This document shows positions 7,699 through 48,620 of a stretch of DNA of 64,000 nucleotides, in pieces; positions within the stretch are counted from its first letter, which is position 1, and the number at the start of each line of letters is the position of its first letter. The notes under the pieces were generated by a model. The model was not told the origin of the DNA and made no database searches. It worked only from the letters and a program-made list of their open reading frames with translations. A program made the position numbers and the translations under genes. The stretch is from Kappaphycus alvarezii (lineage: Eukaryota > Rhodophyta > Florideophyceae > Gigartinales > Solieriaceae): positions 310,001 to 374,000 of the forward strand of contig NADL03000641.1 of assembly GCA_002205965.3 (NCBI GenBank). The letters are read 5' to 3'.

Positions 7699-7785
7699 AT
7701 TCCATATCTGTCCACTTGGCATTGTCACATAATCATTTCACTGGCCAATAAAAAAATAATCAAGAAAAACTTTGATGTAAAGGTG
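7699..7785 (+). repeat. left arm of a long inverted repeat
   Basis: About 85 bp that pairs with 9123-9210 on the opposite strand. Shared blocks include GGCATTGTCACATAATC, TAATCAAGAAAAA and GATGTAAAGGTG (ATGTAAAGGTG in the partner). A few mismatches and one-base gaps separate the arms, so the pair is old but clear. See the enclosed segment 7699-9210. Confidence 0.75.
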
Positions 7786-8199
7786 GGGGGGGATCCACAG
7801 TAGGCGTTGACACATAACGGGGCAACAAGTACAAATTGCACGGTAAAGTCCTCACGATTACCAGCCGGGTGTGGCCGAGTCTTAAGTAGGCCAGTGCAGT
7901 CACCATACCGGCCCCTACCTCGACATCAACCACCTATCCCGGCCTTTTCATCAACTCTCCCCTCACCTTTCATATCCCGTTTCACCTTCACCTTTTCCTC
8001 TCCCTTATCCCTCCGAGATCATCGCCTCTCCTTCAACATACCGCCCCTATGCACATCTCCCGTCAACTCTCCATCCCCTTCCAGCACTGACAACCTGGAT
8101 AATCTTTTTTATTCTTGTGGCGGCCATCGTGGAATATCTAGGTCGAGTTATGTGCCGCTTTTTGAGTGATTTCTTGTTTTGTTACGGCCATAGGACAAA

Positions 8200-9073: not shown

Positions 9074-9122
9074 CGAGGTGATTTTACAAACACGGCTTTG
9101 GTTCTACTGTACATCTCCACCT

Positions 9123-9210
9123 CACCTTTACATGAAAATTTTTTCTTGATTATGTTTTAATTGGTCAGTGACAAGATTATGTGACAATGCCATGTGGCCA
9201 GGTATGGAAT
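9123..9210 (-). repeat. right arm of a long inverted repeat
   Basis: Inverted partner of 7699-7785. It ends in CATGTGGCCAGGTATGGAAT, which pairs with the ATTCCATATCTGTCC start of the left arm. Confidence 0.75.
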
Positions 9211-12600: not shown

Positions 12601-14419
12601 CTTCATCGAGAATGCGATCTACTACCTACTTGTCTCCCAATTTTGCGGTTGCTTCCTCTTCTCTTGTATCGTTGCCAATGTTTGTTGATGGTGTTGCGGC
12701 TTGTACTGATGCCGCGCGAATGCTTGAGAAGGTAACGTGCGTAGGCCGGGGTGTTACGGTGAGTTGATCCGGGTTGACGCGTCCAACCAATCCATCGCTG
12801 TCAAGAATAAGGGTTCGGCCGTCATTCCGCAGAAGTTTGTATAGTCCTTTTGCATTATATTCCATTTTTCCTATGTTATGCTCGGGTTGTCCAATTATAC
12901 TCAATCGCCAGAGCTAACTCTTATTTTGTTCAAGCTTAATCCTTTGTTGAAGTCGCGCAGATAACGCTCTTGCGTCTTCTAAAGGCGTCGGTAGGCCGAA
13001 TTTACAGCTTTGTCAAGCCTCGAAATGAAATCGGTTTTCGATCTTACCTTTAGCCGAGCTCGGCTTGTAACACTGTGATGCAACGAAAGTTTAGGTAGTA
13101 GTCGACTAAGCACCAAGTCGAAAGGATTTTTGCTGGTTGAACTATGGACATGTAAATTGTATACAAACGTCAGTGTGGCCGCATATTGATCCCAGTCCGA
13201 CTGATGTTCGTTCACGTAACCTCGTAACATGGCTGCCAAAGTTCCGTTGTACCTTTTCAATTGACCATTATTTGTGGATGGTAAGTTTTTCTGAACTTTT
13301 TAACTACTTGCAAGTGTCTACACACAGCTTTAAAAAACTTGGCAGAAAACTGCTTTCCATTTTCTCTCAAGATAGTCTCCGGTGGGCCATACTTGAATAC
13401 CCAAAAGGTTGCCGAACGCAACAATCACCTTGTAAGCAGAGATAACATCCAATTGTACTACTTGTGTGAGTTTTGAGAAGAGACAAGTCATGACTAAGAG
13501 AAACTTGTTGCAAAATTCGGTCTCTGGGAGGGGTCCTATCAAGTCCACGGCGACGTACTTTGACTTTTTTGTGGTCCGGAAAAAATTCAGTTAGTTCGTC
13601 TTTTGGCGTAACCTGATGCGATTCTTTTCACAATGGTTGCAGTTCCTTAACGTTGCGTAACAATCAGCTACCATGTCTGGCCAATAATACGTCAAGCGTA
13701 GAGGCTCTCACATTCTCGTCTGGCCAGGATGTCCTGCTAACGAAGCGTGATGCGATGGCTTCGAGACTTGAGCGTGCAATTATTTTGGAAGCACGATCTG
13801 AATTTGGCCATCGATCGGACTTCGCCGTTTCAGGATTCCATCCCTCCTTCAAAGAAAGCAGACAGTTTTAAGCGTCGCGGTTGCTTGGCCAAAACTGTCT
13901 GACAAAAATCATCGTTCTCCTGTTCTTCCACCACTTCATCGTAAGAGGTGGGGCTCGGCAGCTCCTCTGACACAGAGCCAGCTGTCTGCTCTTGCTTGTA
14001 TGCTGCGGTACGGATGTAGTCTGCACATTCAGGTCCCAATGATGAGTGTATCCAAGTCCTCCGGATCCACCATACCCTCATAATCAAACGCTTCGGTGGC
14101 CAACTGTTGTCTACGTAGGCGACGAGTCGTGGGTAATGCAACATGAAAGGATAAAACTTTTATGGCACCACCAATCGGTCGGTCATCATAATCATCTTGA
14201 GGCCGAGTCAAACTTGATAAAGCATCGGGAAGTGGTTTCACTCTTCCCGGCTTCTACACAATAGCGAACTCGTATTCGGCCAAGCGCAGTCTCCAACGAA
14301 TCAATCGATCGAATGTACCTGCCAACCCCATGAGCCATTTGAATGCGTTGTGGTCAGTTCTGATAGTGAATTTGGTTTCTCCGATGTACGATTGACAGTA
14401 TCCTTCTCGGACCTCATCG

Positions 14420-14796
14420 TAAACGCGCCGATCGTGTTGGGATTCTGTGAGACCGAGTTGGAAGGCGTCCTCACGCGTGACCTAGTCACTGACGCAGTGA
14501 ATTACATAGTCCGTAATGTTAGTTCCAAAGAAACCGAGGAACTCCTGGCGCGAAACGCGGTACGGATGACTTCCGCAAGAATCGTTGTGTATGAAGAAGT
14601 GGTTCCACTTCTCCCAACCAAGGCATAGCAGCCTGTTAATGTCGGACCGTTCCGATAAAAGGCATATGAGGTTCGCTCGTGCTACTACAGGGGGTCCCTT
14701 TGCACGGCGGGCGACCCGCGCCGCCTTCGTGGCAATAATCTTGCGAGGGGCACGAACACCTGTGCTCAAACGAGTAAGTTGCTTGGTGCGAGCCAC
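14420..14796 (-). pseudogene. histone H3 pseudogene
   Basis: From 14796 the minus strand reads V-ARTKQLTRLSTGVRAPRK, then IIATKAARVARRAKG, which follows the H3 tail (ARTKQTARKSTGGKAPRK / QLATKAARKSAP) residue for residue over about 30 positions. Further on, LGFFGTNITDYVIH matches the H3 helix region LVGLFEDTNLCAIH, and about 20 residues later VTREDAFQLGL matches VTIMPKDIQLA. The family is 135-136 residues. Here the spacing to the IH pair is about 13 codons short. The initiator is GTG instead of ATG, K9, K14 and K27 are replaced, and a stop follows the IH region, so it cannot encode a working histone. Upstream DNA continues like a normal 5' flank, which argues for a copied genomic gene and not a bare cDNA. 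The tail match is strong; the middle is weak. Confidence 0.78.
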
Positions 14797-15186
14797 CGTT
14801 GCGGGAGAAGAGAAGAACGATTTTCGAAATGCTTTTGAGCGATTGAAGATGTGGGAAGAAGGTAAATGGTTGTTGGACGATGGAGAATGTGGCACCGCTG
14901 GGCGTATACCGCCTGTTTATCAGCACCTCGGTCGTTCGCCCGACGGGGGTTAAGTATATTGATGTGATCTGGTGAATGGTTGACAAGAAGGGTAGAGGAC
15001 GTGGTCTGGGAGTGATTTGGACAGGGAGAGAGTAGACAAGAGGGCCCCTAGATGTGTGGGGGTTGGTGCTGGAGTCCGTTATTTCTTTTGCGGCGCCCGT
15101 GGCCCACAATGAGTGGGGAGGCGCGTCACGCGAGTTTGGTGTCGCGGGACCACTAGCGTTGCAGTCTAATTGGACCGGTTCGCTCG

Positions 15187-15280
15187 CACAGTATACAGTA
15201 CCACTGTACCCTGTACGAGCGGGGAGCGGGCTCATACAGTGTACAGTGGGTAGTGCACACTGTACAGGTACTGTACGAAC
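15187..15280. promoter_or_regulatory. TACAGTA/CTGTAC motif cluster (inside the H3 insert)
   Basis: At least six half-sites (ATACAGTA, ACTGTACC, CTGTACGA, TACAGTGTACAG, ACTGTACAGG, TACTGTAC) within 95 bp. The same motif family clusters upstream of host genes at 28.85, 32.0, 33.1 and 42.7 kb. It lies 390-490 bp upstream of the H3 start, consistent with a transplanted host promoter region (inference). Confidence 0.4.
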
Positions 15281-17249
15281 ATAGAAACCCTGGGCTTGCA
15301 GCCCCTGTAAGAAGGCGAAAGGGCTGCCGGAACCCAAAGAAAGGAGAGGATACGTTCCGCTTGGCCGCAGAAAGAAAGTAAAACAGAAAACAAGCATTTC
15401 AAAAAGGAAATCTATTTGGTTCTTAAATGTTTGAAAGGTGCGGTTCGTCTATCCCCCGGTGTATGCTAGACGTGTTCAGGTTAATGGTTAATGCCACTAG
15501 CGTGCCTAAATGGCTGGATCAAAGTCTGTCAGCAGGCATGATGCATTGGACATCACTGCTGCTGCCGCATTCCTCTGGGTTAAAAGCGCTCGAATCGCCT
15601 CGTATGTCTCCATTGCCCTAACAGCCACGTTCCGCGCCACGTCTGTTAGCACTGCGTACAAAATTCTATTACGGTGAGAAAGTTTACTTTACCACAGACA
15701 TATGCAGGTGCAACATGCAAAGTCCTGAATACTCCACCGTAAAAACCTAAAACAATTAGGTTTGAATAGGGTGGACACTATTATATTCATGGAATTAGAG
15801 GCCCAGGATAATTCACTACTGTATGCCGCAAGTATCTTTGTCGTTACAGTGACTTACAGTATTCGATACAAAAAACCGTCGCAGCCATTGTGGCAGCTCC
15901 GGTCCCGTTGGAGCGAGTAAATACTGCGTCGCTGGGTCGCCGTGCTACCCTCTTTTTTAACGTAATAAAGGTTTAATTTTCGTAGTACTACTGAAGGGTT
16001 GTTATGACCAAAGTACTGCCAAAACACTCCCTTTTTGTGGCCGAGTAATTATACTCAGCGTTGGTCAAAACACGTGACTAATACCCAACAGAAAGATACT
16101 CTCCATCTTCTTGTTCTTGTAACAAGGAGCACCGTACTTGGTAAGCACTTACATCCGTATCCAACATATAGTGACAGCCAAGTATTGGGAAAACCCAGAA
16201 AGGGAGAAATGTTAAAGTCTCCTTCAACTTCAAAGGCTTTCCTTTGGGTGGCCGTGTGGTTTTAAAATTTTCCAGGGCCTCCGTCTTTACGCAACATCAT
16301 CGTGAGTGGTCGAGCAGTCCCAGCGAATCCTTTTACAAACTTTCTGTAGACGTTGCACGCTCCAATGAAAGACCGCAGCTCCGTCAGATTGCGAAGGAAA
16401 ACGTTTTCCGAAACAGCGTTCTTGTTGTTCACGGCCACCTGAAGTTTTCCTGGGTGGACGACATAACCAAGATAATTCATAGAAGACTGGAAAAGAAAGC
16501 ACTTCTTCAGTTTCAAAGAGATACCGGCCGCTGTTAGCAGCCTGAGTACTTGATTTAAATGTCCAATGTTTTCCTTAATGTCCTTTGAGAACACGATAAC
16601 ATCGTCCCAGTATACCAAGCACACTTGCCAGCGTACTCCGGACAAAACGATGTCCAAGGCGCTCTGAAATGTTGCCGGGGCATTCATCAATCCAAATGGC
16701 ATCCGAAGGAAACGAAAAGTTCCTATGTGTGACGTGAGGGCTGTATTTTCACGATCCTTTTTGGCGATGGGTACTTGGCAGTACCCGCAATTGGCATCCA
16801 ATGTGGAGAAGACGGCCGTTTCTCCAGAGCAGTCTATACAGTCATCCATTCTCGGTAAGTGGTATGAATTAGCGATGGTTTTTACGTTCAGTCGGCGGTA
16901 TTCTACGCAAAAGGGCTTCGAAACCTCCGGATTAGGGACCAGTACAATGGTTAATTGGAATTTTTTGTCCTTATTTTAACTTGGCATAGAACGAGAGGTT
17001 CAGAATATGTCCTGTGCTTCTATTCGGGATAACGGGTTCCTTGTGCTCTCTTTTCTTCTATTTGGCAGACGTCTTACTTAAGGTTCTTAAAAGAGACCCA
17101 TTGGCAATGGTCAGAATGCCAGACACGGAAAAAGTAGCTGCGCGTCAACAAGCCTTTGTGTGTAATTATTCGATGATTCGAAAGATTTGTTGCGGAGCGC
17201 ATACTTTAAAGTCATGCCTTGAGCAATCCTGAGACGCAGTTCTACAGAA

Positions 17250-19634: not shown

Positions 19635-21352
19635 TCAACGGGGGAAATGGTGACCTTCTAATGTCAAGTTGTGAAATGGGGACAGAGAGTATCTGGACCA
19701 GCCGTAGGCATTACTTCTGAGAGCTGTCGCTAGTGATACGTATTTTGCGATGATCGTCATAACAGCCGTGTACTGGAGGACGAACAATGAGACACGTGTA
19801 CATAAGGAATGAAACTCAGAATGACGGTGTCTACCACGCCTCTCAGCCATACAGTTGCTAAGGTCTTGGAGAGCCTTGAGACTACAATTTCCAATGTGTC
19901 CATTGATGTCAATGACAAGGGGGATGAGTCGTAAGCCTTCTTGGTCGCAAGCCGCAGAATAGTATGCTACTTTCTTCTTCTCGGCACGGTCAGGAGTAGA
20001 TGCACCATTGTCAGCTAAGTTGCGGTATGGGGCAAAGTGGGGGCTGACAATGGTGACATCCAAGGCCATAGGAGATGGGGCGAACAGGGAATCCTCAATG
20101 ACGAAGTCGAGGGCTCGCCGCTCATTGGGCCTCTTGTGCAGATCTGCTGCGAGGACACGCTCCCGTTTGACGGAAAGGGAAATGGCGGGGTGCGAGATTT
20201 CGTAGTATAACAGGTCGCGCAGGCGGTTGTGCCGGCGTACCTCCCCGATACCACCCTTGCATATAGCCGCGTGATGTCCGAGCTCGTCAAGGTCAGGGGG
20301 AACGTCGGAGTGGCCGGAGAGGCATGTGGGGCAGGGATCCGAGCCGCGGAAGACCTGAGCTCCGAGGCGTGCAGAGACCATCGTGCGCCAGATCTCGCCA
20401 TGTGTATACAGGCCATTGGAGGGAGGGGCAGGGTGGAGAAAGTGGCTGAGTCGGTGGAGGACTGCACCGAGAGAAGCCGCGAGCAATGATGGTTGTGGTG
20501 GTGTGCGGAGAAAGATTGGCGCAACTTCACCAGGTGGGATTGGTGCAAATGCTCAGTAATAGCGTGTTGTAAGGAGCGAGAGGTCGTTGTGTCCAATCGG
20601 GGGATGGCCTCAAGCAGTGCCTCTATTCGGAGTTCCAAGGGTAAGTCCAGGTCTGCGGAGAGTCTGTCGTAAGCGGGAGCGAGGAGACATGCTGTACGAG
20701 CATACGGAGTTGCTAGCAGTCGATTAACGAGGTTGAAGCTTGAAAGGAAGGAGGTGGTGAAGGCGATGATGTTAACAATCTTTGATGGGGTGAGTCCTAG
20801 GCCGCCAAATCGGAACGGTAGGGACGCCTGGAGCCACTGATTGTCGTCGACTTTGCGATGAGTCCGCTCGAAAGCCCTTCGCATCCCCTTGTCAAAAGAT
20901 TTGACAAGAGGATTAGTAATTTGCGGCGGGGCAGTTCGAAACAAGAACATCACGAGGGAGCACGATGCGTAGTAGCGAAGGATTTGGAACGAAATTTGCG
21001 GATCGTTGAGGAGGGCGAGAGAGGACCACAAGGCTTGCGCGTTCACAAGAGCTTGGCGAGCGAGGGTGATAGAGGCAGATGTGGTGCCTACCGGGCTTCC
21101 CAGGACTGTAGTGGCATCCGAGGTGATGACGTCGCATGGAAAGCCAGGGAGGGAGGCGTTGGGGTGAAGAGAGGGCCACCATGGTGATTTCTTGTTAGGG
21201 TTGAAGTTAACGTTAAGTCCGTGTTGTGGGCCGTGCTGCTGGAGGTAGAGCAGGATTTGCTTAGAGCAACGGGGGCCTAATATCAAAGTACTGCATAAAT
21301 TTTCAGCCAGTACAACGGCTATCGTCTGGTCCAACAGTCTGCAGGCTGACAT
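19635..21352 (-). mobile_element. 5'-truncated non-LTR retrotransposon (RT C-terminus + restriction-like endonuclease)
   Basis: The minus strand reads a reverse-transcriptase C-terminal half (20500-21352): it begins at a degenerate catalytic box (RLLDQTIAVV, where YLDD would be expected), then GLNVNFNPNKK, VLGSPVG and WLQASLPFRFGGLGL, the usual thumb/connection landmarks of LINE-type RTs in algae and oomycetes. One frameshift near 20490 moves the reading to 19635-20486, which carries a CPTC...H...C zinc motif (about 20250-20335) and a PD-(D/E)XK-like endonuclease pattern: RRHNRLRD, RRALDFVIED, ALDVTIVSP, KKKVAYY, LIPLVIDINGHIG. This matches the C-terminal restriction-like endonuclease arrangement of R2/CRE-like lineages. 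Everything upstream of the RT catalytic box is missing, the usual result of incomplete target-primed reverse transcription. No poly(A) end was seen. Confidence 0.8.
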
Positions 21353-21657
21353 ATTCGACCGATCAAGTCTACGCGTATGAGAGCACTTTTGTACGTTACT
21401 TTGGATCGCTCACTGAACATCAGCGCTCGAATCAATACGCCTGGTGTTGCTCTTTTTTCCGTCTCCAACTGGAATGCTGTTTTCTTTGGGAACAGAAACG
21501 TATCTTCTCCAGGAAGACCATGTGCCCAAGTCTTGCATTGCAGTACACGAGTATGAATTGTTAAGGTTTACTGGACCTTTAAATCTTTACTTGTTACTTA
21601 ACGACCATGCTACACTCTTTCCGTCCTAGAATAAGATGGATTCCTCATTCAATTGCT

Positions 21658-28845: not shown

Positions 28846-29030
28846 TACTGTACTGTACATGTACTGTACTGTACACATAGTACAGTATCACCATGTACTG
28901 TACACATACAGTAGTACAGTATCACCAGGGGACATAAGATCTGAAAACCGTACAGCTTACAGTAATTTATAAAGAGTCTTGGTACTGTGACATTACAGTA
29001 TTGTACAGTATTGAAGAATAAAGTACAGTT
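28846..29030. promoter_or_regulatory. TACTGTA/TACAGTA cluster between divergent genes
   Basis: At least nine overlapping half-sites: TACTGTACTGTACATG, TACTGTACTGTACACA, TAGTACAGTATC, GTACTGTACACATACAG, TAGTACAGTATC, TTACAGTAA, GTACTGTG, TTACAGTATTGTACAGTATTG, AGTACAGTT. The cluster lies 130-320 bp upstream of rsmH (minus) and about 400-580 bp upstream of the DUF2301 gene (plus), so it may serve both. Confidence 0.45.
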
Positions 29031-32010: not shown

Positions 32011-32280
32011 GTACAGTACTGTGGTTGTACAGTACAGTACAATATGCGCTGTACAGTACAGTAGCGGTGCAGTACAGCCGAGTACAGTAGTAGGGCAGGA
32101 CTGAATCGATTGATTTGAGGGGTGGGTGTCAGGACCGTAGACTATAGAAGAAAAAGAACGTTGCAAAACGAGACAGTTTGGGGGGCACCATGGAGATCGG
32201 CTCTTCTACTGTACAGTACTGTGCAACTGCTGCTGCCAGACAGTGATGCCCCCTGTATAGCGCACTAGTACAGTACAGTA
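32011..32280. promoter_or_regulatory. TACTGTACAGTA cluster upstream of MPV17
   Basis: Repeated GTACAGTAC units at 32011-32095 (GTACAGTACTGTGG, GTACAGTACAGTAC, TGTACAGTACAGTAG, GAGTACAGTAG), one full 12-base palindrome at 32207-32218, and GTACAGTACAGTATT at about 32270. It starts about 190 bp upstream of the MPV17 start. Confidence 0.45.
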
Positions 32281-40344: not shown

Positions 40345-41894
40345 TCAAACGTCCGAAAGCTCCACGCTTCTCAATCCGCTCAGCCCCGCCCTCCTACCCC
40401 GCTCCGCATGTACCCTTGCAATCTCAGTCAGCAGTGAAAACAGCACCTGCACCCCTTGCAAATAGTTTTTCCGACTGATCTTTTCATTATTAGAGTGCGC
40501 CCCATCATCCGACTGTCCCAACGGCAACAGCATCGTCTCAACTCCAATCTTCTCTTGTAACAACTCAGTGATTGGAATACTCCCCCCTCCCGTGTCAAGT
40601 CTGGCCGAACTCCGTACACTTTCAGCAATGCCGCAGCCCCAGCCTGATACAACGCACTTCTCGGGTTAGCCAGCCACGGTTTGGAGCTTGAGCTTGTGAT
40701 CCGCAGCTCGTTCGGCGAGTCCATTTCCGCAAACCTCTGCTCCAGTACCTTTGTCACTACCTCCTCCACACCCTTTGGATCCTGTCCTGGCACCAACCGG
40801 ATCGAAAACTTGCCGGTCACACTCCCCGGGATTACCGTCTTAAACCCGCTTCCAGAATACGCCCCTTCAATCCCATGAATCGACAACGCTGGATACCTCC
40901 ATCGATTCATCAGCACTTCTACTGCACTCTTTCCCACCAGTTTTCCGACTCCTCCAGCCTCCTTCTTCAAGGTTTCCGTGTCAAACGTGATTCCCCGGTA
41001 TAACTCCTCCTCCTCCTCTGTCACTTCTACACTCGAGTCCTTTCCGCACCCTGCAATGCCAATATCCCCATGTCCCATCGCGCTCACTGCTGCAAGTAAT
41101 TGCACCAGATCTGTCATTGGTTCCGCAATACACCCACCGTACACCCCTGAATGCAGCATCTGACTCCCTCCCCTAACCTCACATTCGAATGTGGCCAAGC
41201 CTCTCAATCCATACGTCAGGCAGGGTTTCTCTTTGGTAATCCAATAGTTGTCGGTGATCACCACATAATCAACGTCACACAAAAACCCTCCTCTTTTTGT
41301 TTCCCTCTCCAACAAGTCCCCCAAACACTCACTATTCGACTCTTCCATTCCTTCGAAACAAATCTTCAAGTTAACCGGCAGCTCCACCCCCAGTTCACGA
41401 TACACATCCACCGCCCACAACCAAGCCAACGCAGGGCCCTTATCATCCGTGCTCCCCCTGCCACACAAATTCCCATCCACTTCAGTCAGCTTAAACGGCT
41501 CCGTCTCCCACCCATCACCCTCCTCTGCCGGTTGCACATCGTAATGACCATACACTAACACCGTGGGCTTACTCACACGACTCGGCTGTGTAAACTCACC
41601 CAAAATAACCGGCGGCAAATCAAACCGAATGCCATCATCCAGCTCTTGAAATCCAACAAGCACCTTCTCAGCACTGCCGCCAATGTCCTCGATCCAACGG
41701 TGCAAGAGATCGGCCATTGCAAAGCAATCATCACGACGCGCTAGGTCGGTGGAGACAGAAGGGATGGCAACGGCTTCGGAGAGACGGTCGACGTAGACTT
41801 GCTCATTGGCGGATATCAGCTTGCGCGCTTCTAGCAGGAGGTGCTGTTTTGACGACGGGTCGTCGTTTGATTGGTCTGCTATGTTCTGAACCAT
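40345..41894 (-). CDS. CNDP2: cytosolic non-specific dipeptidase, M20 family (CNDP2-like)
   Basis: A di-metal M20 peptidase that splits dipeptides such as Cys-Gly in the cytosol. ATG at 41894 with no obvious targeting signal. Metal and catalytic landmarks: VYGHYDVQPAEEGDGW (metal His and general Asp), CGRGSTDDKGPALAW (bridging Asp), EGMEESNSE (catalytic and metal Glu), VITDNYW (metal Asp), LTYGLRG, LHSGVYGG (dimer-lid His), MNRWRYPALSIHGIEGAYSGSG, KTVIPGSVTGKFSIRLVPGQDP, PDLTREGG. After TREGG the frame must change by one base (one G missing from the G6 run at 40580-40586), then continues SIPITELLQ, LPLGQSDDGAHSNNEK (last metal His), ending at 40345. About 516 residues, near the CNDP2 norm of about 475. 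The 5' side has the TACTGTACAGTA sites at 42.7 kb, though about 800 bp away. Confidence 0.94.
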
Positions 41895-42222
41895 TGCGGG
41901 GGACAGGATGTGAGGGATGGGGGGAGAGGGTGGGGAAAGGTTGCGGTAAGGCGGGAGTGTCGGTGACGAACGTTGTTGTGGTTGGTGGCGCGGATTTCAG
42001 ACAAATAGGATGGAACCGTACGAGTGTATGCCACGAGAGCGAAAAAGATTTTGGGACAGTGGTTTACTATATCCAGACAAATATACCATACAGTGTATGC
42101 ATTGCACATTGCACACCCCGTGATGCGACGAAAATGCAACGAAATTGATACAGTGGAATGCAGTATGTTATTATTGGGTATATTTTGCAGAGCATGTTTT
42201 TAAACGAGTTGAGCGAGTTGGA

Positions 42223-43476: not shown

Positions 43477-43797
43477 TTGAACCCCGCCCGCCTCCCCTCC
43501 CTGGCGCGATGCCCTCTCAAGCCCCTCAACCATGCTCGCCTTGGTAAGGACACCCGCTTTGCCGAGTTGATACCTTCCAAGGGTCCTGGGTATCGATTCA
43601 TTGCCCTTCCACTCTCCACGTTGGGGGGCTGGCACCCTACCGCTCGGGACTTTGCCAACCGCGTTGCGACTGGCATTACCGCACGGGCAGCCGTTCCGAT
43701 TGCTGATGCCCAGCGAACATTGTTCGCTCGTCACGCGACGAGACTCGTCCAGAATAACCCCAGTTGTTTGTTGGAAGGAGTTTTGAGCGTCACTTAG
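43477..43797 (+). mobile_element. non-LTR retrotransposon 3' fragment (B)
   Basis: An open 106-codon frame without an ATG at its head, reading KDTRFAELIPSKGPGYRF, IALPLSTLGGWHPTARDFA, RTLFARHATRLVQNNPSCLL and a natural stop at 43797. It is homologous in DNA and protein to fragments A and C, and similar in design to the endonuclease end of the element at 19.6-21.4 kb. It is the most intact of the three and retains only the last 100 residues or so. Confidence 0.7.
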
Positions 43798-43799
43798 AC

Positions 43800-44520
43800 C
43801 ACAACTTGAAATTGTGTATATTCCAGAGAACCTCCGTTCTCGGGGTATGTACAGTAAGTGGTTACCCTACTTACAGTAGTCCTAGTCAGCGATTGCTCTT
43901 ACCGTAGCAGGAAAATTAAGTACTGTATACTGTACCAACACATTCAAGTAAACCCCAGTAACCCCCTATCCCCTAAACCCCTAAAATCCGTAACTAACCT
44001 CCGTTCTCAGGGTATATAAATGGCTACCCAAATTAGGCCTCGTCTACGATTGCTGTTATCAGGAAATTTAAGTAAACCACCCCATTGAACCGGCCGCTGT
44101 CGCAACCCACAGCGAATGTTCGACGGGGAGAGTGAAGACTCGGCTTTATCAGCGGCCTAATTATGCGATTTGGTCCACGTGTGCCGCGTCTGTAATATGT
44201 TGCGCCTCACAACACGTAGAGTTTGTGCAATCATCTTTACTTAATGATAAAGAGGATAACTGTACATTTCGCCACCCTTTTCAAAACTGTAACTCTCAGG
44301 TTTGTTACAGTAGGGTATCCAGGACTTTCATGTTGCACCTGTATATTTCTGTGAAGTAATCGAAAATCCCCCTTTGATCCCTTATCCGCGTAAGAAAACC
44401 CCATTAAACCCCTTACGATATCCCCTCTTACCCAAACATTTACGTAAACCACCCAATTTAACCCCTTATCCCGAAATTAAGTAAGTCTTCCCATTTGACC
44501 CCTTCTCCCTAATACTTTAT
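43800..44520 (+). repeat. 3' tail with repeated C-rich units after LINE fragment B
   Basis: Two copies of a tail block, CTCCGTTCTCGGGGTATGT at about 43832 and CTCCGTTCTCAGGGTATATA at about 43998, then several imperfect units of the form GTAAACC-(5-15 nt)-CCCCTTATCCC (about 43949, 44069, 44430, 44475). A related unit precedes fragment B at about 43372. The same tail block follows fragment C at about 48560. No gene here; the 75-codon frame at 44132-44359 has no recognisable feature. Confidence 0.5.
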
Positions 44521-48300: not shown

Positions 48301-48620
48301 ATAATCTCTTTATTTCGAGCAAAGGGTTCTGGAAATCGTTTCATTGTCCTTCCGCTCTCCACATTGGGGCTGGCATCTAGATGCTCGGGACCTCGCCGAC
48401 CGGGTTGCGATTGAAATTTATGCACATGCAGCTTTTCTGATTGCTGAGGCGCGGTGAACAATATTCTACCCTCACCAGGTGAGTTAGAATAACGCCAGCT
48501 GTCTTTTGGAGCTAATTTGGGGGAATTTTAAACCTACAGTAAGTTGGTTCCAGAGAATAACCGTTCCCTGGGTATATAAATCGCTACGAAAATTAAGCCT
48601 TTTGTCCGTTTTTTATAGCC
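48300..48620 (+). mobile_element. non-LTR retrotransposon 3' fragment (C)
   Basis: DNA-level homologue of fragment B: GGTTCTGGAAATCGTTTCAT, then CTTCCGCTCTCCACATTGGG and GATTGCTGAGGCGCGGTGAA correspond to 43583-43720. It is followed by the family's tail block (CCAGAGAATAACCGTTCC, GGGTATATAAATCGCTACG, 48550-48595). More decayed than B; no open frame. Confidence 0.6.

Follow-up and report, generated by a model that had tools for sequence, protein, structure and literature searches.

A partial histone H3 relic between the two halves of a Gypsy RNase H domain in the red alga Kappaphycus alvarezii

Disabled sequences derived from histone H3 are familiar as ordinary pseudogenes of histone genes. 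The relic described here lies in a 64-kb stretch of the Kappaphycus alvarezii genome (contig NADL03000641.1, positions 310,001 to 374,000; hereafter the window), where what is most likely an H3-type gene 5′ end lies within a decayed Gypsy retrotransposon. Like the ordinary pseudogenes, it is disabled H3; unlike them, its match stops inside the tail or shortly beyond it and is accompanied by upstream DNA. In the reading that we favor, with modest confidence, a host genomic piece that bore this 5′ end, and that had diverged beforehand, was inserted into the RNase H region of the Gypsy element.

The closest described systems are found in fungi, dinoflagellates, and nucleomorphs. In Dothideomycete fungi, transposon-captured and mostly truncated H3 copies are described, which share with the present relic that the H3 coding sequence is incomplete and lies in mobile DNA that has decayed (PMC6710886). 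The fungal hAT elements possess 20-bp inverted repeats and 8-bp duplications, occur with their H3-like sequence in hundreds of copies, and belong to transduplications that the same account states to be without promoter sequences (PMC6710886). In contrast, the present relic is a single copy in a single window, has no inverted repeat, contains only the tail, and retains upstream DNA. In the case of dinoflagellates, H3 variants lacking lysine 9 (K9) or K27 are reported, with K4 usually kept (PMC4751559), and nucleomorphs are reported to have H3 without K9 or K27 (PMC4822330). These proteins resemble the relic in that K9 is replaced or absent in the tail, but they are described as H3 proteins, whereas the relic has no detectable core and no start codon (PMC4751559, PMC4822330). 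Furthermore, the chlorarachniophyte nucleomorph H3 is described as missing a large part of residues 10–38 and as having lost the K4 context (PMC4822330). A literature search combining H3 pseudogene, gypsy, and red alga found no papers. The relic is a known kind of thing and is ordinary as it stands.

The window has 46% G+C and contains several long open reading frames (ORFs), apparently intronless host genes. The decayed Gypsy element occupies approximately 13–17 kb on the minus strand, with the following features.

16262–16975, minus strand: Gypsy reverse transcriptase, 237 codons open (Pfam RVT_1, expectation value (E) 7.4e-24)
15964–16230, minus strand: first half of the Gypsy RNase H, RT_RNaseH_2 profile positions 11–99, coordinates derived from the reading frame
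14396–15984, no strand assigned: non-Gypsy segment of 1,589 bp between the RNase H halves, delimited by Pfam ranges and edge words, edges ± about 30 bp
14272–14397, minus strand: second half of the Gypsy RNase H, RT_RNaseH profile positions 64–105 (E 9.1e-7), coordinates derived from the frame

The order of the reverse transcriptase followed by the RNase H, both recognized by Pfam, is that of Ty3/Gypsy elements. The first (right) half of the RNase H matches RT_RNaseH_2 (E 1.1e-12) and also RT_RNaseH (E 5.9e-12, profile positions 6–74), and its last seven or so residues overlap the proposed insert edge and a weak repeat match. The two halves are on the same strand and meet near the same profile position (64–74), with approximately 1.59 kb between them. 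Hence, the split of the RNase H domain by a 1.6-kb segment, which the first-pass annotation of the window had proposed, is borne out by Pfam RT_RNaseH matches on both sides. Against PDB, the right half had a single weak match (E 0.47) and the left half had none, and a scan of viral contigs with the reverse transcriptase yielded no confirmed relative. The integrase side of the element (12979–13830) is broken across several frames; the ORFs at 12979–13299 and 13330–13590 appear integrase-like by eye, without a Pfam match at E 1.

On the minus strand of the segment, the H3 tail stretch reads VARTKQLTRLSTGVRAPRKIIATKAAR and is divided as follows, with human H3 serving as the reference in place of the host H3.

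14794–14796, minus strand: GTG at the position of the H3 ATG start, read from the sequence
14716–14793, minus strand: H3 tail codons 1–26, ARTKQLTRLSTGVRAPRKIIATKAAR, with 19 of 26 residues identical to H3
14692–14715, minus strand: H3 codons 27–34 in the same frame, with 2 of 8 residues agreeing with H3; because of an intron or a break, this part may no longer be H3
14400–14691, minus strand: post-tail stretch with no detectable H3 core and a same-frame stop at 14484–14482

Over 14796–14695, comprising the start codon position and codons 1–33, 21 of 34 aligned residues are those of H3, and the N-terminal ARTKQ..ATKAAR pattern of the H3 tail is present. The frameshift-aware score of the tail is 93, compared with a mean of 24.4 and a maximum of 43 in 300 dinucleotide shuffles; among 108 window tiles, the runner-up reaches 42. 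With phmmer against PDB chains, 124 sequences have an E of 1 or below, and the best 60 of these are H3 chains, peptides, or H3 chimeras (E 4.8e-5 to 1.5e-3). The H3 match, therefore, stands above background. The earlier claim that about 30 consecutive positions track the H3 tail holds for codons 1–26, but the agreement fades thereafter, and in codons 27–34 only A31 and G33 agree. Likewise, K4 is kept while K9 and K14 are lost, as had been described, with L in place of K9 and R in place of K14, but the supposed loss of K27 may simply reflect the end of the match; R2, R8, K18, and K23 are also retained. The bases directly after the codon 26 stretch are GT, and to regard them as a splice donor is a guess. 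DNA profiles built from back-translated histones gave two H3 matches in the tail, only at E 1 and 1.2, and chance matches elsewhere ranked higher. A scan of viral contigs with the tail frame gave no confirmed relative.

Positions 1–26 of H3 are nearly universal. Relative to the human tail, which was used as the ancestor in the clustering test, codons 1–26 require at least 13 base changes, and 19 codons require none. The changes at K14 and at Q19 number three apiece, and those at T6 and at K9 two. At 12–14 changes, 19 or more unchanged codons occurred in 3 of 26,030 simulations of neutral substitution with host codon use and in 6 of 26,093 with uniform use; for codons 1–34, with 23 changes and 21 codons unchanged, the count was 2 of 12,390 with host use. 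The changes are thus clustered by codon in a manner rare under simulated neutral substitution, and the previous description of the lost lysines as expected of drift is doubtful. Such clustering suggests that most of the differences arose while the tail was still coding, or that the source was a divergent H3 variant. It is a tentative and rather doubtful possibility that a divergent H3 variant, which evolved in this lineage while held under amino-acid constraint, left its trace in the tail, and that its 5′ end and promoter became caught in Gypsy afterwards; with K9 replaced by L and K14 by R, such a variant would allow no K9 methylation, while R2, K4, R8, K18, and K23 would have been kept.

Upstream of the tail, the segment contains a motif cluster and repeated DNA.

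15190–15289, no strand assigned: TACWGTA-type cluster, 400–500 bp upstream of the first codon of the tail, like clusters near local host genes
15684–15774, plus strand: dispersed repeat, with a second copy at 44359–44272 (78% over 92 aligned bases, E 3e-13)
15959–15985, plus strand: weak repeat match at the right edge, with a copy at 48610–48584 (85% over 27 bp, E 0.024)

Within the cluster, 6 sites deviate from the motif by no more than one mismatch, including 2 exact ones, and only 0.5% of 100-nt intervals reach 6, in agreement with the cluster upstream that had been noted as similar to those of local host genes. In the whole window, 70 exact TACWGTA sites are present compared with 5.0 expected, and clusters are situated near host ORFs matching MraW, DUF2301, and FAD-binding monooxygenase, as well as Mpv17, the last below the Pfam cut-off. 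The presence of DUF2301 hints at a photosynthetic lineage. Clusters also occur between host genes, for example at 28846–29010 and 32012–32280. The motif is likely a promoter or repeat signature of this genome; a literature search on it gave nothing relevant among the matches listed. At the edge near 14400, no run of A is seen by eye, and the tail is accompanied by more than 1 kb of upstream DNA with the dispersed repeat, which does not correspond to a processed retropseudogene. The motif cluster and the dispersed repeats point to host genomic DNA rather than reverse-transcribed mRNA. Consequently, the proposal that genomic DNA had moved, and not a processed mRNA, is favored, but its extension to a whole H3 gene is not supported.

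At the edges of the segment, two similar words form a candidate target-site duplication.

14386–14395, plus strand: left copy, GTACGATTGA, from word comparison
15985–15994, plus strand: right copy, GTACTACTGA, from word comparison

The words are identical at 8 of 10 positions and occupy the same RNase H profile register (profile positions 64–67, derived from the Pfam ranges), and this same-residue placement is what a target-site duplication would give. Of 33 bases compared in register at the edges, 17 agree, without the agreement clearly extending past the 10-base word. The duplication hinted at in the first-pass annotation is a likely though unproven candidate on the evidence of these words, and the open edge alignment lends it no significance. 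An AATAAA on the plus strand at 15964–15969, about 15 bp inside the right insert edge, resembles a plus-strand polyadenylation signal and is probably due to chance.

The short candidate duplication and the repetition of part of the insert elsewhere in the window would also be in keeping with a non-autonomous DNA transposon that captured an H3 fragment by transduplication and then jumped into Gypsy, for which the hAT elements with mostly truncated H3 in Pseudocercospora fijiensis provide a precedent (PMC6710886). However, no terminal inverted repeat is seen at the proposed insert ends (best local score 5), no second copy of the H3 part is found in the rest of the window, and the shared repeat spans only 92 bp, leaving this explanation unlikely.

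A complete H3 gene with its promoter, inserted and then decayed neutrally in place as first proposed, would account for the tail match together with the upstream cluster within the RNase H. Up to the Gypsy edge, the frame also has roughly the length expected and contains a single stop, and the whole-H3 alignment reaches 14532 via three frameshifts with 34 of 90 residues identical, but its score of 95 gains only 2 points over the tail alone. The fold part, by contrast, is not detectable. At a frameshift penalty of 9, the H3 core has a score of 27, compared with a mean of 26.9 in the shuffles, 135 of 300 of which are as high, and its N-half (21) and C-half (23) are equaled by 201 and 126 of 300, respectively; at a penalty of 14, the core, N-half, and C-half are matched by 97, 213, and 105 of 300 shuffles. 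The 103 residues after the tail have no PDB and no Pfam match, even at E 10, and the H3 C-terminal helices previously proposed there score at chance level. Pfam with the tail frame found nothing, which is consistent with a match limited to the tail. In simulated decay of back-translated whole H3 genes (60 runs for every combination of eight divergences with two indel rates, n = 960), the core fell to 27 or below in 3 of 960 runs, all at 0.35–0.40 divergence with the higher indel rate, and in runs with a tail score of 93 ± 15 the lowest core score was 60. Decay alone would not hide an H3 core, and what can be detected is limited to the 5′ end of an H3-type gene.

Several further properties of the post-tail stretch were compared. 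The host-codon score per codon, which also depends on amino-acid make-up and to that extent argues less firmly for a piece already diverged, is +0.228 for the tail frame, −0.20 to −0.25 for 14482–14691 in three frames, and −0.02 to −0.09 for the homology-supported Gypsy frames. The frame from the GTG stops after 104 codons, and its openness is not remarkable, since 1,904 of 18,226 stretches of 70 codons in the window are open as well. A hidden fold in the 104-codon frame was considered and gained no support from AlphaFold2 run without an alignment, whose mean predicted local distance difference test (pLDDT) score of 39.1 is weak evidence against it. A second histone gene in the insert was likewise rejected, with best scores of 38 (H4), 34 (H2A), and 44 (H2B); when each histone was scored against 82 further tiles of the window, the H4 value of 38 was attained by 13 tiles and the H2B value of 44 by 3, and H2A reaches 49 elsewhere.

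The age of the Gypsy element bears further on decay in place. Stops were counted by eye in the cleanly read Gypsy frames, comprising the 237 codons of the reverse transcriptase and the two RNase H stretches (about 418 codons). The 2 stops found correspond to a neutral divergence of 0.046 (95% range 0.006–0.167). At a neutral divergence of 0.05, none of 4000 simulations gave 13 or more tail changes, and at 0.16 there were 380 of 4000. The tail changes, therefore, probably exceed the prediction from the Gypsy stops, and this larger divergence of the tail makes divergence from H3 before the insertion likely. Together with the chance-level core, the detectable cores in simulated decay, and the clustered codon changes, the excess makes in-place decay of a whole gene quite unlikely.

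Certain points weigh against insertion of an already diverged piece. With the stop at the insert edge included, 3 stops give a divergence of 0.069 (0.014–0.202), and at 0.20 at least 13 tail changes occurred in 1224 of 4000 simulations, so the upper bound of the Gypsy age leaves room for decay after insertion. The stop count also left out the integrase side (12979–13830) and at least one frameshift, and the element may be older. A milder clustering measure (at least 4 codons with two or more changes) was reached in 770 of 26,030 simulations; the choice of both clustering measures, and of codon 26 as the cut, was made after the data had been seen, and human H3 stands in for the host H3 gene throughout. 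In addition, the duplication is weak, as local alignment of the two 60-base edges scores no better than random pairs (a fraction of 0.50 of 3000 as high), and the two Gypsy halves could be different copies around host DNA. The last point leads to the least likely explanation, in which two separate Gypsy fragments flank host DNA, no insertion took place, and rearrangement of the element enclosed an old H3 relic; the region is decayed with frameshifts and the duplication alone is not significant, but halves on one strand that meet at about the same profile position speak against it.

The insertion of a diverged host piece would proceed as follows. A 1.6-kb piece of host genomic DNA would have entered the RNase H region of Gypsy, presumably in one event with a short target-site duplication. 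The piece would carry the 5′ end of an H3-type gene, namely the leader and about 26 tail codons with no detectable histone fold, and would also bring a portion of a dispersed repeat and the motif cluster that lies upstream. Its divergence from H3 would probably precede its arrival in Gypsy, with the differences confined to few codons, as in a coding sequence drifting under amino-acid constraint. The end of the match most likely reflects either a piece comprising exon 1 and part of an intron, with a putative exon boundary near codon 26, or a break of the gene at this point. Neither a detectable histone-fold core nor an ATG start, as a functional H3 would have, is present. Since the start is GTG, the fold is absent, and the frame stops at 104 codons, the relic makes no histone; this genomic fossil is most likely without function.

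Elsewhere in the window, diverged direct repeats are present at 43579–43775 and 48322–48510 (72%) and at 44001–44040 and 48561–48600 (85%), in a region rich by eye in GGGGTTTA-like words. An inverted repeat at 7699–7803 and 9104–9210, with 85% identity over 107 aligned bases and a spacing of about 1.3 kb, could be the ends of a small transposon. The M20 peptidase ORF at 40428–41996 continues by eye in another frame after a one-base shift at about 40.6 kb, suggesting an assembly indel or a broken gene. Two long open frames on the minus strand at 19635–21409 resemble by eye the end of a non-LTR (long terminal repeat) reverse transcriptase and have no Pfam match at E 0.01. The ferrochelatase frame has no PDB match at 1e-20, no Rfam match was obtained in the window at gathering scores, and no tRNAs were found there.

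The fossil suggests that retrotransposons of this genome can come to harbor host DNA with the 5′ end of a gene. If a divergent H3 variant, lost or living, were indeed its source, this would mean a histone tail without K9, which would bear on the marking of silent chromatin in this lineage.

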